Shown here piece after piece: positions 2,582 to 19,574 of a DNA stretch of 29,923 bases. The position numbers were made by a program, and so were the translations under genes. The notes under the pieces were generated by a model. The model was not told the origin of the DNA. It was given only the letters and a program-made list of their open reading frames with translations, and searched no databases. Numbering within the stretch: the stretch's first letter is position 1; the number at the start of each line of letters is the position of its first letter. This stretch comes from a virus: the IMG/VR virus record IMGVR_UViG_3300046557_000416, positions 1 through 29,923 of that record, one strand, 5' to 3'.

Positions 2582-3307
2582 TTACAGAGCGAGTTCGGTC
2601 TGGGTTTCGCGTTGCCAGATCGGCGAACTGTTGTGCGATTCGATGCGGTCGGCGATGACGTTGGCGCGCTGGCCGGCGGTGGGCGGGGCGTACATCCCGA
2701 AACGGCTGATGCTTCCGCCGTTCACTGCAGCGTTCGTGGAATCGGCTGAAGCGAAGGGCAGGTGCTGGAAGATCGCAGGGTCAAGCATCCGCAGCCCGTG
2801 TAGCCGGCACACCGGTCGACCCTGTTCGTCACAGATAGCGTCCATCGCGGCGGCCATCCGCTTCCACCATGCTCCTGTGCCCGGCGCAGCCCATTGCCCA
2901 GAACTGCCGAGGGCGACAGTTCGCCAGCACCTCGCCAGCCGCTGCAACCGCTCAAGCGATTCGTGCAAGTGCCAAACAGGTACGCCGCGTAGATCCTCAG
3001 GCCACTGCCGTAAAAGGTCGTCGTTCGCCTTTTCGTCGCCATCAATGACGTCCGGAATAAGCGCCCAAGTGAATCCAGGGTGCCGGTGCCAATCTTCGAC
3101 CCAGCGCGTGTATCCGTCGACGTCTACCTGGCCGCCTTTCTTCCACACAGTGAATGCGCCGTTATCGAAAACAAACGATTTGCAAACATCGGCGACGATG
3201 CCGAGATCGTCCTTGCGTGGGAACGGCACCAGCGCGTGCCGCCCGGCCAGGAACTTAGCGGCATCCTCGCGCTTACCGCCGACAGGCGTGCCGTGGTAAT
3301 GAATCAT
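2582..3307 (-). CDS. Short TGT/DpdA-like protein (putative deazapurine-type base exchange)
   Basis: A 241-residue phage protein. It carries, in order, short motifs that line up with tRNA-guanine transglycosylase (TGT): FDNGAF (47-52, D48), IPDVID (84-89, D86), WHLHES (112-117), ALGSSG (132-137), LHGLRML (169-175) and SADSTN (187-192, D189). These would correspond to the TGT general acid/base Asp, substrate Asp, Q/G binding loops and the nucleophilic Asp. Phage DpdA enzymes share this fold and insert 7-deazaguanines into DNA. At 241 residues it lacks the TGT zinc site. No deazaguanine synthesis genes are in the window, so a host precursor would be needed. The fold call is an inference from motif order. 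It overlaps its upstream neighbour by one base (TGATG). Confidence 0.6.
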   Translation of the reverse strand: MIHYHGTPVGGKREDAAKFLAGRHALVPFPRKDDLGIVADVCKSFVFDNGAFTVWKKGGQVDVDGYTRWVEDWHRHPGFTWALIPDVIDGDEKANDDLLRQWPEDLRGVPVWHLHESLERLQRLARCWRTVALGSSGQWAAPGTGAWWKRMAAAMDAICDEQGRPVCRLHGLRMLDPAIFQHLPFASADSTNAAVNGGSISRFGMYAPPTAGQRANVIADRIESHNSSPIWQRETQTELAL

Positions 3308-3549
3308 CAGCTGAGCCTCACCGTTTCGATTTCCACGCCCTGGTGCGTGGCGATGATGGTCTGATCGCCGCCGAGCGTTTCGGCAAGGCTGTCGGCGATT
3401 TGCTCATGCCAGCCATGCTTGATCAGAGCGGTTGCCGTTTTGATGTGCTCAACGTGGATCATCGAGGTTGATCGCAATTCAAGCTGGTAGATGATCGTCT
3501 CGCCGTCGGCCGGGCAGACGGCTGCGAAAGTGTGTCGGTAGATATTCAT
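3307..3549 (-). CDS. Conserved small phage protein, unknown function
   Basis: An 80-residue protein (MNIYRHTF... to ...GVEIETVRLS) of a type common in Pseudomonas prophage accessory operons, with no assigned role. It has no membrane segment or metal motif. I chose the ATG at 3549 because it overlaps the upstream small ORF stop (ATGA); an in-frame GTG at 3555 would add two residues. Its stop shares one base with the next gene's start, so it sits inside a translationally coupled chain. Confidence 0.75.
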   Translation of the reverse strand: MNIYRHTFAAVCPADGETIIYQLELRSTSMIHVEHIKTATALIKHGWHEQIADSLAETLGGDQTIIATHQGVEIETVRLS

Positions 3550-3602
3550 CGCCACGGCCCCTTGTAGATGAGGTAGGCCATGTAGAGCGGGGCGAAGATC
3601 AT
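3546..3602 (-). CDS. Possible 18-residue membrane peptide
   Basis: A tiny ORF (MIFAPLYMAYLIYKGPWR). Its start overlaps the stop of the gene before it (ATGA at 3599-3602) and its stop overlaps the start of the gene after it (ATGA at 3546-3549). The composition is hydrophobic with a basic end. Perfect coupling on both sides suggests it is translated, either as a peptide or simply to pass ribosomes along. There is no homology evidence. Confidence 0.4.
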   Translation of the reverse strand: MIFAPLYMAYLIYKGPWR

Positions 3603-4566: not shown

Positions 4567-5445
4567 ATGGTTGGAATTTATTCCAAGGGGAAAGTTACTA
4601 ATGGAATTCTCCGGGCGGATCTCGATAATTTCGTAGAATTCTTCCAGTTTAGTCAGTGGTTTCATGAGGGCGTGGGGCGTTACTATTTTAGGGGGCAATC
4701 AAATTCCGAGTGGGGGTTAACAACCACTTTGGAAAGGTTTGAATCTGGCTTATACAAGCATGCCAGAGGAACTGGTGCTTTTATACTTCAAGACTTCAAG
4801 CGGTTACTAAGAGGAAAAGGTTTACTTGCCAACATGGACCGCACTTCGGATGAGGAGATCCTAGCGCTCGGCCAGCACTATGGTTTGCCAACTCCGTTGT
4901 TAGATTGGTCTGAGTCTCTTTATATCGCACTGTTTTTCGCCTTCTGCGAAGAAATCCCCAAGTCGGTCGATAGGATTTGTGTCTGGGCAATCCAGACCTC
5001 TGCTTCAGAGATTATGGACCATTTCAATGAAAAGGCTCTGGCAGGAAATCTTTCTGGTGGAAATGATGAAGATTTCCTTCCGATGAAGTTTGTTGATCCG
5101 CATACTGATGTCAATAGTCGGCTCGTATCTCAGTCCGGATTGTTTTTACAAAAGCCTAGTGGTGTGTCAGTTGAGGAACTGGTGGCAGAGTACTGTGCTA
5201 ATAATAACAATTCTCCTGTTCTTGCCAAGATTACTGTTCCCGTTAAGGAACGGGAAAGCGTTCTCAACAATCTTCTGGCTATGAATGTGAGCTGGGCAAC
5301 CATTTATCCAGGCATAGAAGGTGCTGCCCTACACGCGAAAATGAAGCTACAACTCTTGAGCCAAAAAGCCGATAGAATGGGGGTGGTAGGGGTTGGTTTA
5401 CATGCGGCAAAGAATATCAAAGGAGCAACTCCGGGCAAGGATTAA
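4567..5445 (+). CDS. FRG-domain protein (lysogenic cargo, possible defence)
   Basis: A 292-residue protein with the two hallmarks of the FRG domain: YYFRGQS at 39-45 and a second block at 102-126 (LGQHYGLPTPLLDW, then ALFFAF). FRG domains occur in phage- and plasmid-borne proteins of unknown biochemistry and are often found with defence genes. No extra catalytic domain is visible. The gene is visibly more AT-rich than its neighbours, runs against the flanking leftward genes and has its own promoter. These are marks of a recently acquired moron. The ATG has GAGGG about a dozen bases upstream. A defence role is inferred from context. Confidence 0.8.
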   Translation: MVGIYSKGKVTNGILRADLDNFVEFFQFSQWFHEGVGRYYFRGQSNSEWGLTTTLERFESGLYKHARGTGAFILQDFKRLLRGKGLLANMDRTSDEEILALGQHYGLPTPLLDWSESLYIALFFAFCEEIPKSVDRICVWAIQTSASEIMDHFNEKALAGNLSGGNDEDFLPMKFVDPHTDVNSRLVSQSGLFLQKPSGVSVEELVAEYCANNNNSPVLAKITVPVKERESVLNNLLAMNVSWATIYPGIEGAALHAKMKLQLLSQKADRMGVVGVGLHAAKNIKGATPGKD

Positions 5446-5599
5446 TGAGAAATTAGTTACAGTTCCCGTCGTAACCTTAGCGCCGCGTCTAATATCATAT
5501 ATTGATTTGGCAGGGGAGGCTTTGGGTCGGCGAACTTCCCTGAAAGGTACGGTGCTGGGGAACGTCTTAAATTCAACTGCAGCACATGAGATTTACTAG
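5402..5599 (+). CDS. Possible small protein overlapping the FRG gene end
   Basis: A 65-residue ORF (MRQRISKEQL to AAHEIY) starts 44 bases inside the FRG gene in another frame. It ends at TAG 5597-5599, sharing CTAG with the convergent methyltransferase stop. Base composition resembles the FRG gene. I recognise no family and no clear ribosome site, so it may be a small partner, the remnant of a longer gene or spurious. Confidence 0.35.
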   Translation: MRQRISKEQLRARINEKLVTVPVVTLAPRLISYIDLAGEALGRRTSLKGTVLGNVLNSTAAHEIY

Positions 5600-7641
5600 G
5601 CAGCTTTGGCTTTGCGTTCAGCGGCGCGCCACGGGTCGTTGGCCTTAGCCAGCGCGGCCATCGGCGGCGGGCTCACGCTGTTGCCGCACATGTGCACTTG
5701 TTGGGTCTTAGTGAATGGCTTGCCGTCGGCGCCATGGCTGATGATGTAGTCGTCCGGGAAACCTTGAGCCTTGTAAAGCTCAGCCGGTTGCAGCATCCGC
5801 AGGCAGATATCGACGATCACATATGGCGTGTCCTTGATAGTGACGGTCACCAGTCCCAGCCGATCCTTGGTGGTGATGGTTGGCGCTGGTGCGTCGGTGG
5901 CGCTCATGTTCTCGGTGCCGTAGTAGCTGATCAGGAATGCCGCGACGCGCAGCGCACCGGCTTCAACCTCTGGCAAAAGCTGCAGCTCGACCAGCGAACT
6001 CTTGCCGCCACCGCCGGCTGTTATGGTTGGCGCCGGTTCATCCACACCCTGGCCAACGCTGGCGCCGAACTGGCGCTCCATGAAAGCGGTGACCAATCCA
6101 TGGTGTGTGCCACCGGCGCTGATGGTGTGCAGCGGATCGGCTGTGTCACGCGCATCGCAGTTGCCACGCAAGTGCACCAGGTTCGCCGTCACCAGCTGCT
6201 GCTGGCTGCCGGTGTTGGTGACCGTGGTCATTGGGTCTTCGATGCTCTTGGCCGCCGTAGTGTTGAAACCGCCATTCATCTGAGCCATGAACACGGTTGA
6301 GATACCCATGGCGTGAGCGGCACCCGCCGGGCGCTTGTAGTCGCCGCCGCTGGTGATGGTCGGCAGCGGCTCGTCGAGCGCCTTGCCTTCGTCCGCAAAC
6401 CGGAATTTCACCAGGTGGGCAGCGGCGAGAGCGCGGTGACCCCGAGTCATCAATGTGCCGAGAGGCTTATCCGCAGCTACCGGATTTCCGGCATATATTG
6501 GGCCACCGGCACCGACCAGCACCGGACTGATCATCGTCAGCTCGCCGCGATTCGCGCAGGTGACCGTCGGCAGCGGGGCGTGTGGATCGTTGATGCGGTC
6601 GCTGCCCTGATGCGTTGCCGGCGCGATGATCGGGCTGGCCATGGCGAACGATCCGCCGCGCGGCCATGACGTCACGGTGCGCAGCGGGTCATGTGCGGAC
6701 TGGACGCTTTCGCCCGACCAGTTCGCGATCGGCACGATGAATGGATCAGCCGCATCAATGACGAACTTCTTCATTCCCTTGGCGATTCGGCGCAGGGTGG
6801 CAGGTGCCAGCGGTTTTACCCGGTCGAAAATGCTTTTGCTCGGTATGGTCCAGTCGATGCACTCGGCAGCGGTGCGCCACTTCTGCTGTCCTTTGACCGG
6901 ATGCTTTGCGTGGGTTGGCTCAGGCCACACAATCGGCTGGTTATCGCAACGGGCGATCATGAACAGTCGCTCACGACTGGTCGGCGCGCCGAAGTCGCAG
7001 GCCTTAATCACCCGCCACTCAACGGCGTAGCCCAGGCGCTGCAGTTCAGCGACGAACACTGCCCACGTTTGCCCGCGACGCTTCGGGTCAGGCACTAGGA
7101 ACTGCTGGTGAACCGGTACGACTTCGCCAGGCTCGGCAATGGAACCGCCCAACTTCATCACCCGGCCGGTGGCCTTGCAGCGCTTGGCGATCAGCGGCCC
7201 CCATTGGAGGATCTGTTTCACGTTCTCCAAGCTGATGACGCGCGGCTTCTTCTTGCCAGCCCACTTCAGCCCGATCCACGAAAGGTTTCGGATCTCGCGC
7301 TTGCGCGGCTGGCCGCCGGCAGCCTGGGAGTGATGCGTGCAGTCTGGTGACATGTGGAACCAGCCAACGGCCTTGCCGCCGCACTCGGTGTCTGGATCAC
7401 CCTCGAAGACGTCGGTGGTGTAGTGCACCGCGCCCGGGTGATTCACGGCGTGCATGCTGATCGCTTGGGGGCTGTGGTTCTTGGCGACATTCACCGCGCG
7501 ACCCAGGCCCATCTCCAGCCCGGTACCGGCGCCGCCGCCACCGCAGAAGAAGTCGACAACGATCTCATCGTCCTGAGTGCTGAAGCCGAGTCCGTATTGA
7601 GTTTTGAAATCGAAGGGGTGTTTCTTCTGTTGTGCGGACAT
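5596..7641 (-). CDS. DNA cytosine-C5 methyltransferase with repeated variable region
   Basis: A 681-residue enzyme that transfers a methyl group from S-adenosylmethionine to cytosine C5 in DNA. Motif I is VVDFFCGGGGAGTG (28-41). The catalytic Cys lies in MSPDCTHHS (C101, so P-D-C rather than the usual P-C). ENV is at 139-141, TSRER (motif VIII) at 221-225, motif IX (MLQPAELYKAQGFP) at about 616-629 and motif X (GNSV) at about 653. Between motifs VIII and IX the protein holds eight copies of a P-x-x-T-[IVL] motif (about residues 318 to 590), replacing a compact recognition domain. The start at 7641 has GAGGA about nine bases upstream. It follows the adenine methyltransferase in a likely operon. 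It probably protects phage DNA from restriction; the target site is unknown. Confidence 0.92.
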   Translation of the reverse strand: MSAQQKKHPFDFKTQYGLGFSTQDDEIVVDFFCGGGGAGTGLEMGLGRAVNVAKNHSPQAISMHAVNHPGAVHYTTDVFEGDPDTECGGKAVGWFHMSPDCTHHSQAAGGQPRKREIRNLSWIGLKWAGKKKPRVISLENVKQILQWGPLIAKRCKATGRVMKLGGSIAEPGEVVPVHQQFLVPDPKRRGQTWAVFVAELQRLGYAVEWRVIKACDFGAPTSRERLFMIARCDNQPIVWPEPTHAKHPVKGQQKWRTAAECIDWTIPSKSIFDRVKPLAPATLRRIAKGMKKFVIDAADPFIVPIANWSGESVQSAHDPLRTVTSWPRGGSFAMASPIIAPATHQGSDRINDPHAPLPTVTCANRGELTMISPVLVGAGGPIYAGNPVAADKPLGTLMTRGHRALAAAHLVKFRFADEGKALDEPLPTITSGGDYKRPAGAAHAMGISTVFMAQMNGGFNTTAAKSIEDPMTTVTNTGSQQQLVTANLVHLRGNCDARDTADPLHTISAGGTHHGLVTAFMERQFGASVGQGVDEPAPTITAGGGGKSSLVELQLLPEVEAGALRVAAFLISYYGTENMSATDAPAPTITTKDRLGLVTVTIKDTPYVIVDICLRMLQPAELYKAQGFPDDYIISHGADGKPFTKTQQVHMCGNSVSPPPMAALAKANDPWRAAERKAKAA

Positions 7642-7651
7642 AGGGGATCCT

Positions 7652-7663
7652 CGCCGGCTGGCG
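7652..7663 (-). promoter_or_regulatory. Hairpin upstream of the C5-methyltransferase RBS
   Basis: CGCC-GGCT-GGCG hairpin just beyond the GAGGA ribosome site. The 15 bases at 7653-7667 (GCCGGCTGGCGTGAT) are repeated exactly at 8570-8584 before the adenine methyltransferase, so the two methylase genes carry related leaders. Confidence 0.5.
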
Positions 7664-7688
7664 TGATAGTGAAAAAGGGGTTTAAGGG

Positions 7689-8543
7689 TTATGCGCGTTC
7701 GCCGAGATCCAGCCCTATCTGGCTGACCCGATCGACGCATGCCGGGCTCAGCCAGACGCATTCGGTGCGGCTTGCAGTGCCGCGGCTGGCGCTGATCCGC
7801 GCCGAAGTGCTGTAGCAGGCCCAGCCCGGCAGCATCTCTGCATATAGGTCGCTCGGGTATCCCGAAAGCACGACCATTCCTTCTAGCTCGAGCAAGACGC
7901 CGAGCAATTCGCGGTGCGCCGCGTCGTCCATTTCGTGCTTGTAGTAGCGACCGCTCGATGCGCCTTTGTACCTGGTGTCATGTACATAGGGCGGGTCGAC
8001 GTAGTGCAATGTCTGCGGGGCATCGTGCGCCGTGATCACCTCGATCGCCGGTCTGTTTTCGATCAGCACGCCGCTCAGACGCTGGCCAACCTCGGCCAGT
8101 TGCTCAGGGTAGGTTGCCCAAAGTGATTGGGCTGTGCCGTATTGGCGCTTTGTGTCGATGCGGAATCCCGTAACGCCCTTCGTAGCGCCGGCCGAACCGA
8201 AGCCCATCTGAGCGCGGATGATGGTGCGCCTTGCTCGCTCGACTGGCTCGGTGCTCGGCTCCCATGAAAGCTCAAACTCCTCGCGAGAGTAGGGCGTGAA
8301 GACCAAGCGCTCAGTGAGTACCGATCGCGCAACCGGATCCTGCAGGACGCGGAACAGGTTGACGATGTCGCCGTCCAGGTCGTTGTAGACCTCAGCATAC
8401 GATCGAGGTTTTTGCATCAGCACGCCGGCCGCGCCGCCAAACGATTCGACGTAGCAGGTGTGCGGTGGAAAATGTTGCAGCACCCACGGCGCAAGCCGGA
8501 ACTTGGCACCGTGGTAGCGGATGACCGGTGCGGTGATGGTCAT
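7689..8543 (-). CDS. DNA adenine-N6 methyltransferase (Dam/D12 class)
   Basis: A 284-residue enzyme that methylates adenine in DNA using S-adenosylmethionine. VIRYHGAKFRLAPWV near the start and ESFGGAAGVL are the motif X/I elements of D12-class MTases. HYVDPPYVHDTRY carries the catalytic DPPY motif. HRELLGVL and VVLSGYPSDLYAEML are typical of phage Dam-like enzymes. The frame is open further upstream. ATG 8543 has GGA seven bases upstream; ATG 8555, four codons earlier, is the alternative. It lies 47 bases before the cytosine methyltransferase, in the same direction. Together they probably mask phage DNA from host restriction. Confidence 0.92.
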   Translation of the reverse strand: MTITAPVIRYHGAKFRLAPWVLQHFPPHTCYVESFGGAAGVLMQKPRSYAEVYNDLDGDIVNLFRVLQDPVARSVLTERLVFTPYSREEFELSWEPSTEPVERARRTIIRAQMGFGSAGATKGVTGFRIDTKRQYGTAQSLWATYPEQLAEVGQRLSGVLIENRPAIEVITAHDAPQTLHYVDPPYVHDTRYKGASSGRYYKHEMDDAAHRELLGVLLELEGMVVLSGYPSDLYAEMLPGWACYSTSARISASRGTASRTECVWLSPACVDRVSQIGLDLGERA

Positions 8544-8560
8544 ATTGAATTCCATGTGCG

Positions 8561-8580
8561 CGCCGGCCTGCCGGCTGGCG
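8561..8580 (-). promoter_or_regulatory. Hairpin upstream of the adenine methyltransferase
   Basis: GCCGGC occurs twice, separated by CT, inside a CGCC...GGCG frame, giving alternative short stems. Its outer half is identical to the leader of the cytosine methyltransferase gene. Confidence 0.45.
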
Positions 8581-8634
8581 TGATTCGTAGAAGTGGGGTA
8601 TGTGTGTCTTAACTCACACTGGCAGGAGGCCGAC

Positions 8635-8823
8635 ATGAGGTTGCAGAGCGATGTAGATGCGCTGGCGGCGATCGAAGAGGACGCCAAGGCAATGCTGAAA
8701 CGGATAGGGCTGCCGGACGACGCGGTGAAGCTTGAGGTGGTCGTGTTCCTTCGGGAGGTGATCGACCTGGCCTGCTACATGGAGTCGAAGCATCGGCTGG
8801 TTGAAGCGCCGGCGTTCGTCTGA
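8635..8823 (+). CDS. Small helical protein, unknown function
   Basis: A 62-residue ORF (MRLQSDVDAL to VEAPAFV) that starts at an ATG with a perfect AGGAGG six bases upstream, the strongest ribosome site in this part of the window. It runs opposite to the methyltransferases and towards the HNH gene. The sequence looks all-helical and acidic. I recognise no family. Confidence 0.65.
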   Translation: MRLQSDVDALAAIEEDAKAMLKRIGLPDDAVKLEVVVFLREVIDLACYMESKHRLVEAPAFV

Positions 8824-10231: not shown

Positions 10232-10369
10232 ATTCGTGGGTTGCACACTTGGATTCCTCCAGCCAGCCCCAACGCTGCATTACCTAAAGCGAAACAGTGG
10301 CAATTTAGTAAGCGATAGTGTATTCAGTTCGCTCATTTTGAAGTGGTTGGAAATTACAGGGAGTACGAC

Positions 10370-11374
10370 GTGAGCTGGTTTGACGTAAATGTCGATATTT
10401 TGAAGAACAAAACGTGGATGGTCGAAGCATCCTCGTTCGAGAACTCGCTCGATCACGTCGCTCTTCGATCATTTTCTACTATAAACTGGATTTGGTACGC
10501 TTTACTTCTAGTTGTCTTACTATCGGTCGGGTACTTATTGTTCACGCGGGCTGGTAGGCTTGGCGATAAGTTGGCGAGCTATTTAAGGGTGGCGGTTGTA
10601 TTTGGATTCTTGTTCGGTGTTTACGGAAGTTATCTGGTGCTGCTGTTGTGGAATATCCCTTTTCCGGGGATTCCAGATGCGATAAGAGAGGGCGTGTTTG
10701 GAGATAGCTTAGGAACCTTAAATACTTTGTTCTCCGGCTTGGCGTTTTCTGGTGTTCTTTTAACGTTGCTATTCCAGAGGAAGGATCTTTCTGAAACGCG
10801 CTCTCAAATTGCTAGCCAGCAAGCGGAGTCACAGTTTTATAATTTATTAAGCCACCAGCAGGAAGTTGTGAGGAATTTTGATCTACAAAACAAGATAACT
10901 GATGAAGTTGTTTCGCGGGGTAGGGATTGCTTCAGAAATTGGTCGGAAACCTTGCAAGAAATTCATAAAAACTATTCCGTTTCGTTTGGTAAAGTCGAAA
11001 GTCATATAATTCCTTATGAATTGGTTTATGAAATGGGGCGGGCAGATCTTAGTCTCTACTTTCGGAGCCTTTATTCTGTATTTCGTTTTGTTGAGAAAAC
11101 AAACTATGAAGGTGATGCGCAATTTGGAGTAGTGCTGCGGTCTCTGCTTTCTGACTATGAGCTTGTACTATTGTTCTATAATTCGCTTTCAACTAGAGGC
11201 GTTAAGTTTCGGAGATTTATATACGAGCATGCCTTGTTCGATAATTTAGATCCGAACCTTTTGCTAGTGCCTGAACACGCTCTTTATTTGAATATTGAGG
11301 CTTTTGGTCAGAATGAAGCTATTTTAAGGCTTTTTCCTGATCCGCTCGGCCCCCCCGACCGATCTGGTAATTAG
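10370..11374 (+). CDS. PutAbiC-like membrane protein (putative phage abortive infection/exclusion)
   Basis: A 334-residue protein with membrane segments at about 38-58, 72-94 and 112-135. A cytoplasmic helical part follows. The third segment, SLGTLNTLFSGLAFSGVLLT with QRKDL after it, plus a QFYNLL block (155-160) and a YFRSLYSVFRF block, is the signature pattern of the 'putative phage abortive infection protein' family. Family members occur in prophages and plasmids and are thought to block other phages; the mechanism is unknown. The gene is AT-rich against its surroundings and runs against the flanking operons, a typical moron. I chose GTG 10370 because GGGAG lies six bases upstream; GTG 10343 would add nine residues. 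Confidence 0.75.
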   Translation: MSWFDVNVDILKNKTWMVEASSFENSLDHVALRSFSTINWIWYALLLVVLLSVGYLLFTRAGRLGDKLASYLRVAVVFGFLFGVYGSYLVLLLWNIPFPGIPDAIREGVFGDSLGTLNTLFSGLAFSGVLLTLLFQRKDLSETRSQIASQQAESQFYNLLSHQQEVVRNFDLQNKITDEVVSRGRDCFRNWSETLQEIHKNYSVSFGKVESHIIPYELVYEMGRADLSLYFRSLYSVFRFVEKTNYEGDAQFGVVLRSLLSDYELVLLFYNSLSTRGVKFRRFIYEHALFDNLDPNLLLVPEHALYLNIEAFGQNEAILRLFPDPLGPPDRSGN

Positions 11375-17883: not shown

Positions 17884-18399
17884 TTATTTGTTCCAGCCCG
17901 TTTTGAAGTCTAGTGCCCGCATCATACTGAAGACATCGCAGCATTGAGCGCCTAACGCCTTGCAGACATCGGGCACCTTCCTATTTTGTCGCTGTGCGGA
18001 AGGTTTGGATGTCTCGAGGGAGACTACGCATCGTTCTACAGGGTTTGATAGTGCATACGAAATTAAAAATGGATCTCGTCCAATGTAGGCAAGTTCGTTC
18101 TCATTCAGATCAACGGCATAACCGTTAAAGGTAACGTGAGCAACGGCTGCGGGATCTGCACCCTCTTGAAGCACAAGACTGTCTTTAACTTCTGGTTTTT
18201 TTAACCATCCAGTCAAAATGTCCTCTTTGCCAGCCAAAATCTCTTCATAGATTTCAATTGGCATTTTTACGCGACCATTTTGGCTCTGGTGAAGAAGCCA
18301 AGACCACAATTCTGGCACCATTGTTTGTGGGTAATAAACGCCATTAGAAGTAATCAGCGTGTTTGCATCCAGCAGGTAAAGCTTCCTATCAAGCGCCAT
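17884..18399 (-). CDS. DUF4411 PIN-like protein, putative toxin/RNase
   Basis: A 171-residue protein of the DUF4411 family, which is predicted to have a PIN-like RNase fold. It starts with LYLLDANTLI (D11), has an acidic helix around E52-E53, RDPFLISYAL (D109), and ends with the typical KVPDVCKALG block (D144). PIN acidic residues at such spacing bind metal and cleave RNA. The ATG shares a base with the stop of the upstream HTH-peptidase gene (TAATG), the standard antitoxin-toxin order for this pair. Toxin activity has not been shown here and is inferred from the family and the pairing. Confidence 0.8.
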   Translation of the reverse strand: MALDRKLYLLDANTLITSNGVYYPQTMVPELWSWLLHQSQNGRVKMPIEIYEEILAGKEDILTGWLKKPEVKDSLVLQEGADPAAVAHVTFNGYAVDLNENELAYIGRDPFLISYALSNPVERCVVSLETSKPSAQRQNRKVPDVCKALGAQCCDVFSMMRALDFKTGWNK

Positions 18400-19574
18400 T
18401 ATAATGTGCCAACCAAGTTATAGACATTGGCGGGCTTTACGCCCAATACTCTTCCGGCTTTCGTGGCCGTTAATGCACCTTCGCGCATGGTTCTTTGAAC
18501 CAAGTTTACGATGGCTCCCCCTAATTTGTGCCTTTTAACAACGTAATAGCTGGGCCCGCTAGAGCTATCTCGCCCTTCTTTTGCTGCTGCTTTCTGTGCG
18601 GCCCACAATTCTCTGAATTTCTGAGAGAGAGTGTTCCAGGTGTCCTGTTCAATCACTCCCGATGCGAAGAGTCGATAAGCGACCAAAGAACTGCTCACAT
18701 TGATGCTTTTAGCAAAGCCAGAAATTTTTTGCGCTAGCACATCAGTATTTTCAGCGTGCCAATTCTGTTTGATTAAGTCGTTGGCTGGGAGCAGGAGTAG
18801 GCTAGATATATCGTTACAATACCGTTCAATTTTCTGTTCCGCTCGACTGCCGCTCAAGCCAGTGACGCCGATCAAAATGTGCGCAAATTCGTGAAGAAGC
18901 GTAAATGACCTGGCTGGCGGCGCATCCTGGTCATTGATAACAATGAATGGAGCTATCTTGTCAGATAACGCAAATCCCCTGAAAGCTTCAACAGGTATGT
19001 TTGTATGATGACTACCAAGGTTTCCAATTAGCAGAACAAATGTCCCCATCTCTTCAATTAGTTTTCGGAGATAAGAAAAAGCTTCTTCGGACTTCCCGTA
19101 GCGTCGGAACTCATTAATGTCAAATCCGATCAGTTTACCTAGATAATCAGAAACGGAAGCGGGTTCTAAATCTACTCTGACGCTGCCAACGTAGTCGCGT
19201 GGAAAGGCCTCTTCGACGTCCTGTAGGACATTTTTCACGAGGTCTTGCCGCACGTAAATGTCACGCACTAGAGCGTCAAGCGGTCCCTTGCTTTCGATTC
19301 GTAGCTCTTCGGGCAGCGTGCGGAAATCTTCGCCCCTTTCCGCGCGGGCTGGTGGGAATGGCAGATAGAAAACAAGAAGCGGACGTCGATACACTGCTGC
19401 CATTTTGGCAATAAGTGTTCTGGAAGCCTCTTTTTCGCCAGCTTCATAGCGCCTAAGCATCTCAGGGCCAGATACCTTGCTGCCGCCAATAGCTAGAGCC
19501 TTGGCAGCCTTTTCTCTGCTCAGACCGGCAGTTTCTCTTGCCCATATGAGCACTTCTGGGTTAATTCCCGGCAT
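18399..19574 (-). CDS. HTH plus ImmA/IrrE-type metallopeptidase (antitoxin-like regulator)
   Basis: A 391-residue protein. Residues 5-60 form an XRE-type HTH (ARETAGLSREKAAKAL, then MLRRYEAGEKEASRTLIAKMA). The central part holds the ImmA/IrrE zinc peptidase motif HEFAH (228-232), with a downstream acidic helix RAEQKIERYCNDISSLLLLP supplying the likely third ligand. A C-terminal helical region ends in an HTH-like segment (TKAGRVLGVKPANVYNLV). Fused HTH-ImmA proteins paired with DUF4411 are a known toxin-antitoxin-like unit. Lower GC than the neighbours. Its ATG overlaps TGA of a tiny upstream frame (TGATG). In this phage it could also act on the CI repressor, since ImmA-type peptidases cleave ICEBs1 repressors. 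Confidence 0.88.
   Translation of the reverse strand: MPGINPEVLIWARETAGLSREKAAKALAIGGSKVSGPEMLRRYEAGEKEASRTLIAKMAAVYRRPLLVFYLPFPPARAERGEDFRTLPEELRIESKGPLDALVRDIYVRQDLVKNVLQDVEEAFPRDYVGSVRVDLEPASVSDYLGKLIGFDINEFRRYGKSEEAFSYLRKLIEEMGTFVLLIGNLGSHHTNIPVEAFRGFALSDKIAPFIVINDQDAPPARSFTLLHEFAHILIGVTGLSGSRAEQKIERYCNDISSLLLLPANDLIKQNWHAENTDVLAQKISGFAKSINVSSSLVAYRLFASGVIEQDTWNTLSQKFRELWAAQKAAAKEGRDSSSGPSYYVVKRHKLGGAIVNLVQRTMREGALTATKAGRVLGVKPANVYNLVGTL

Follow-up and report, generated by a model that had tools for sequence, protein, structure and literature searches.

How does a phage that encodes a DpdA, a member of the DNA guanine transglycosylase family, but no precursor genes come to modify its DNA? 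Such DpdA-only phages outnumber every other group in the published survey (group 3, with 76 phages carrying DpdA without precursor genes; Hutinet et al., 2019, PMC6884629); there, drawing on host preQ0 is already the idea put forward for them, and the route from preQ0 to dADG in the absence of phage pathway genes is posed as an open question. The same question is raised by a locus in IMGVR_UViG_3300046557_000416, a 29.9-kb virus fragment whose entire 29,923 nt were analyzed (hereinafter the window). Profile matches in the record to an integrase, an S24/HTH repressor, RecE/RecT, and a terminase small subunit mark it as a temperate phage. The features of relevance are:

2582..3307, minus strand: dpdA, coding for a 241-aa orphan DpdA of the DNA guanine transglycosylase family (PHROG 887, motifs, model)
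3307..3555, minus strand: gene for an 82-aa T-fold protein, probably a miniature QueF-like version and a candidate DpdA partner (PHROG 37496, model, linkage)
3305..3309, minus strand: TGATG, in which the stop of the 82-aa gene and the start of dpdA share one base (sequence)
5596..7761, minus strand: C5-cytosine DNA methyltransferase (PF00145, E=2.6e-25)
7689..8687, minus strand: D12-class adenine DNA methyltransferase (PF02086, E=1.3e-11)

The dpdA ORF begins with ATG, and its product displays six motifs in the order described in an earlier note on this DNA, namely D48 (in DNGAF), D86 (in PDVID), WHLHES (112-117), ALGSSG, LHGLRML, and D189 (in SADSTN). D48, P85, D86, P110, W112, H113, G134, S135, H170, L172, R173, D189, and S190 show no variation in 24 homologs (35-85% identity), so the motifs represent more than a chance resemblance; D48, P110, H113, G134, H170, D189, and S190 stay invariant when the DpdAs of 7-11, MED16, BTP1, and the Seuratvirus are added to the alignment. 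A median dN/dS of 0.054 against 39 relatives reflects strong purifying selection on the gene. The kinship with DpdA proposed in the earlier note was recovered by profile search: the protein matches PHROG 887 ('queuine tRNA-ribosyltransferase'; E=1.4e-68), a profile that also matches the DpdAs of Salmonella phage 7-11, Pantoea phage MED16, Lederbergvirus BTP1, and Seuratvirus KurtStettler, and tblastn searches retrieve those of MED16 (E=4e-38) and the Seuratvirus (E=8e-5). Its identity as a DpdA is hence almost certain. Relatives are found at E<=1e-5 in 121 of the 50,697 phage records searched and in hundreds of viral contigs; a DpdA with 98% identity is encoded by a prophage of P. baetica 25P2F9.

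The likeness to TGTs claimed at the outset stands by way of this phage family and not by direct comparison. Pfam, NCBIfam, and PDB sequence searches returned no match for the window DpdA; neither the TGT profile PF01702 nor the bacterial DpdA profile PF23859 matches it (the latter weakly matches a Streptococcus phage DpdA homolog alone), and it does not have the C-terminal zinc-binding CxCxxC motif seen in host TGTs. As an hhalign comparison of the DpdA alignment with 14 host TGTs was also not significant, we argue for the kinship through the phage DpdA family only. Structure prediction, which the earlier note had put forward as a check, is in agreement: the AF2 model (pLDDT 85.9, pTM 0.84) is a TIM barrel with strands at 44-48, 79-83, 111-113, 130-134, 168-171, and 187-190, and D48, D86, H113, S135, H170, and D189 lie at or adjoining the C-terminal ends of those strands. 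The C-terminal ends of the strands in a TIM barrel open onto a common pocket, and the six motif residues of the modeled protein would accordingly converge on a single site. The PDB fold matches are generic TIM barrels (tryptophan synthase alpha, dehydroquinase; E>0.002), with no TGT in the 50 best, and these confirm the predicted barrel rather than a function; among the BFVD matches (E<=1e-3), all those named by function are queuine/queuosine tRNA-ribosyltransferases. As separate observations on dpdA neighborhoods, two unrelated phages have nucleoside 2-deoxyribosyltransferase-like genes nearby (L372:3118-3525 and L296:3778-4188, both plus strand), with a weak Pfam match in L372 and an annotation as such in Edwardsiella phage ZHS. 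ASCH-domain genes near the dpdA of BTP1 and Epa33 were dropped as candidates, the weak Pfam match being below the cut-off and confined to Epa33.

With respect to size, the protein is not the minimal version that it had been taken for, because the DpdA of 7-11 has 234 aa. That orphan DpdA goes with dADG at 0.02% of G (PMC6884629), and MED16, which has dpdA only, carries dADG at 0.13% of G in DNA that most enzymes tested still cut (PMC8306585). Inactivation of dpdA in CAjan abolishes its dPreQ0 modification, whereas phage Orion, whose host has no preQ0 pathway, has a DpdA and no modification (PMC6884629). Among the hosts of relatives, TGT is encoded by 14/14 genomes, full-length QueC by 13/14, and QueF by 9/9 of those tested. 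The one exception for QueC, a Rhizobium (G013), has genes of the YhhQ family, which would fit with salvage given that YhhQ is a preQ0 transporter (PMC6884629). Searches for QueC in the window and in 12 related phage records gave no match, and YhhQ was not found in the 29.9-kb window record. Host preQ0 is thus the likely source for the phage DpdA, as had been anticipated from the sequence; the QueC counts and the dADG of two orphan-DpdA phages point the same way, and the enzyme probably acts on DNA with it. We also observed that the P. baetica genome G001, which carries a close relative of the window prophage, has two full-length QueC copies (C98:116018 and C214:79612), the first of which adjoins a strong YhhQ-family match.

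The view that no precursor gene lies beside dpdA thus holds for QueC and YhhQ within this fragment, but not for the overlapping neighbor, which is QueF-like in its predicted fold; consequently, dpdA is not really alone. The first reading was largely right, if of a known kind, and overlooked this gene, whose apparent QueF-like character is what is new here. It belongs to PHROG 37496, with no function assigned, and lies directly upstream of dpdA; the TGATG overlap, as read from the sequence, suggests translational coupling of the two. In about 100 Pseudomonas dpdA loci the other genes shuffle, while the 82-aa gene is retained at a near-constant offset in most. A viral contig search with the 82-aa protein as query yielded 80 loci, and dpdA is directly downstream in 80/80 contigs, these being contigs similar to the Pseudomonas query rather than independent events; a larger set of 148 loci counts the same contigs repeatedly owing to repeated cuts. 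Five additional, more divergent contigs likewise pair the two genes, as does Microcystis phage Mae-JY30 in the reversed order, with dpdA first. Across paired loci, identity to the window ranges over 51-98% for DpdA and 66-98% for the 82-aa protein, and their distance matrices correlate weakly (r=0.18), implying that partners have been exchanged while the pairing was kept. Of 399 Pseudomonas genomes, 16 have the 82-aa gene, 16 a full dpdA, and 15 both.

Variations on this organization are also seen. A YhhQ-family (PF02592) gene occurs near the pair in the same gene run in Rhizobium phage RHph_X2_30 and contig L368; the soil phage contigs L368 (4001-5723, plus strand) and L302 (4224-5923, plus strand) show a compact array of the 82-aa T-fold gene, dpdA, a conserved 81-aa gene of no known function, and a YhhQ-family transporter close by. 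In the Pseudomonas genome G753, the 82-aa T-fold domain forms the C-terminal end of a fusion protein whose other 195 aa are unrelated (L385:1495-2319, minus strand); this dpdA is not near the fused gene, and a different 297-aa TGT-like ORF with a VDSGAF motif (L408:1057-1950) lies about 18.5 kb away. One Pseudomonas genome has a truncated 82-aa gene copy 48 kb from its dpdA. Some 10 in 100 dpdA loci of the Pseudomonas type are without the 82-aa gene, and a search beside the dpdA of MED16, 7-11, and BTP1 turned up no protein resembling the partner, indicating that DpdA does not strictly need the partner.

The remaining genes of the neighborhood are less constant. The two DNA methyltransferases that had been noted in the prophage are indeed encoded there, with the C5-cytosine enzyme differently placed relative to dpdA among the loci of relatives and the D12-class gene missing from most of them; given this shuffling, we rejected both as members of the module. 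Near dpdA and opposite to the early operon is an FRG-domain gene (PF08867, E=8.9e-23; 4567-5445, plus strand) that has the appearance of an accessory insertion and may serve in defense. A second accessory gene opposite to the operon (10343-11374, plus strand) codes for a putAbiC domain (PF16872, E=5.4e-13), possibly with a role in abortive infection. Further away (17884-19574, minus strand), a DUF4411 gene (PF14367) immediately follows a gene for an HTH and IrrE-like peptidase protein (PF06114), a layout like that of a toxin-antitoxin or regulatory pair.

The AF2 model of the 82-aa protein (pLDDT 96.7) has a beta-beta-alpha-alpha-beta-beta topology, which defines the T-fold (PMC5372742). In the PDB fold search, archaeosine synthase QueF-Like takes all of the first 13 places (lowest E=1.7e-4; query-normalized TM 0.69-0.79), and other T-folds come next, viz., GTP cyclohydrolase I, QueF, and 6-pyruvoyl tetrahydropterin synthase (PTPS). 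C12-P13, E34, and E49 are invariant in its homologs. In a position-blind hhalign comparison, TFAAVCPADGE of the 82-aa protein falls on EFTCLCPKTGQ of host QueF (P=0.002 versus 0.3 for two controls), placing C12-P13 on the catalytic 'CP', albeit at an hhalign probability of only 6-14% for the protein against QueF. The B. subtilis QueF Cys55Ala and Glu97Gln mutants in the PDB alignment locate these positions in 'LCP' and 'FHE' (PMC5372742); C12 and H48-E49 correspond to them, with E49 placed on Glu97 by motif and not by scored alignment. The protein thereby keeps the thioimide cysteine (C12) and the substrate-anchoring glutamate (E49) of QueF. The QPD motif with the general acid/base aspartate of QueF is absent, D15 being a candidate substitute, and the NADPH motif E(S/L)K(S/A)hK(L/Y)(Y/F/W) (PMC5372742) is replaced by VEHIKTAT, in which the Glu alone is retained. 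Neither Pfam nor NCBIfam searches gave a QueF match, including the QueF profile PF14489 at E up to 10. We hence restrict our claim to a QueF-like fold with two key residues, not QueF membership: the partner is very likely a T-fold protein of the QueF-like kind, whereas the chances that it processes the nitrile of preQ0 are about even.

Building on the observed family membership, predicted folds, linkage, conserved residues, and host pathway genes, we favor, with some confidence, the proposal that 3307-3555 and 2582-3307 constitute a module of two genes with which a temperate Pseudomonas phage modifies bases in its DNA, with substrate, product, coupling, and biological effect as we infer them here. 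The host queuosine pathway would supply preQ0, and DpdA would swap guanine in phage DNA for it by a TGT-type reaction; going by motif position, D189 would be the nucleophile and D48 the acid/base, with D86, H113, S135, and H170 arranged around the base. C12 of the 82-aa protein might then attack the nitrile of preQ0, free or in DNA, to form a thioimide. That the attack takes place once preQ0 is in DNA is plausible, since QueF-L works on tRNA-borne preQ0, for which it uses free ammonia (PMC5485725). Completion by ammonia or water would give dG+ or dADG, which is likelier than reduction to preQ1 (dPreQ1) given that the NADPH-binding motif of QueF is absent. Alternatively, the 82-aa protein may merely hold preQ0 and pass it to DpdA. 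Phage DNA would thereby acquire deazaguanine marks at low density and be cut less by host restriction enzymes. We advance tentatively the possibility that the partner represents a new T-fold enzyme of unusually small size that processes the preQ0 nitrile and works with DpdA on DNA.

The best surviving alternative, though still unlikely, is that DpdA modifies DNA by itself and the 82-aa protein rides along as a passenger, retained through shared regulation or as an anchor for phage recombination. This would accord with the dADG of the partnerless MED16 and 7-11, and the weak distance correlation is what is expected if conserved flanks serve gene exchange; however, hitchhiking hardly explains the 80/80 linkage or a pairing that survives across 40%-identical phages and a reversal of gene order, and the fold of the supposed passenger comes from the preQ0 pathway itself. 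Less probable again is an effect on translation in infection rather than on DNA, with the pair modifying tRNA or sequestering preQ0 from the host Tgt. The related TGTs do have tRNA as substrate, and as modification in orphan-DpdA phages is found in mere traces, a substrate other than DNA may be the main one; against this, the window DpdA is without the C-terminal zinc-binding part of host TGTs, and DpdA relatives accompany modified DNA in CAjan, MED16, and 7-11. An inactive pair or one with another function (e.g., DpdA as a base-excising or nucleic-acid-binding protein), for which the unmodified DNA of the DpdA-bearing Orion might speak were its host not one that makes no preQ0, is very improbable in light of the invariant catalytic residues, the low dN/dS, and the QueC encoded by the hosts.

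The proposed two-gene module is of interest in that the two DpdA-only phages with measured DNA modification, 7-11 and MED16, carry traces only, and a tightly linked, unannotated QueF-like protein offers a concrete candidate for a preQ0-processing step. If the proposal is true, phages can parasitize the host queuosine pathway with just two small genes, many 'DpdA-only' phages have a pathway of two steps that starts from host preQ0, and the product in such phages would be dG+, dADG, or a new derivative.

Among known systems, the orphan phage DpdAs (group 3, PMC6884629; MED16, PMC8306585; 7-11) share the PHROG family and catalytic motifs of the window DpdA, are of similar length (234-261 aa), and, like it, lack genes for preQ0 synthesis in the record and have a host with the queuosine pathway. 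The window dpdA differs in overlapping a QueF-like gene, which MED16 and 7-11 do not have. The bacterial DpdA of the dpd island (PF23859) is TGT-like and, together with helper proteins, puts preQ0 into DNA; the window DpdA, in contrast, has no PF23859 match, and none of the dpd island partners was recognized next to its gene. In phage MMDA13, as in the window, a QueF-like gene (Gp33, QueF-L) lies in the DpdA cluster (PMC7472734), but MMDA13 has the whole preQ0 pathway and the window no such pathway, and Gp33 is recognizable by HHpred whereas the 82-aa protein is unannotated. QueF-Like of Pyrobaculum calidifontis (5jyx/5k0p; PMC5485725) shares with the 82-aa protein the T-fold and a Cys in the same place, and works after a transglycosylase on preQ0 in tRNA. 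The window protein is smaller (82 versus ~105 aa), without a sequence-family match or the QPD aspartate, and, unlike its P. calidifontis counterpart, is linked to a transglycosylase of the DNA type.
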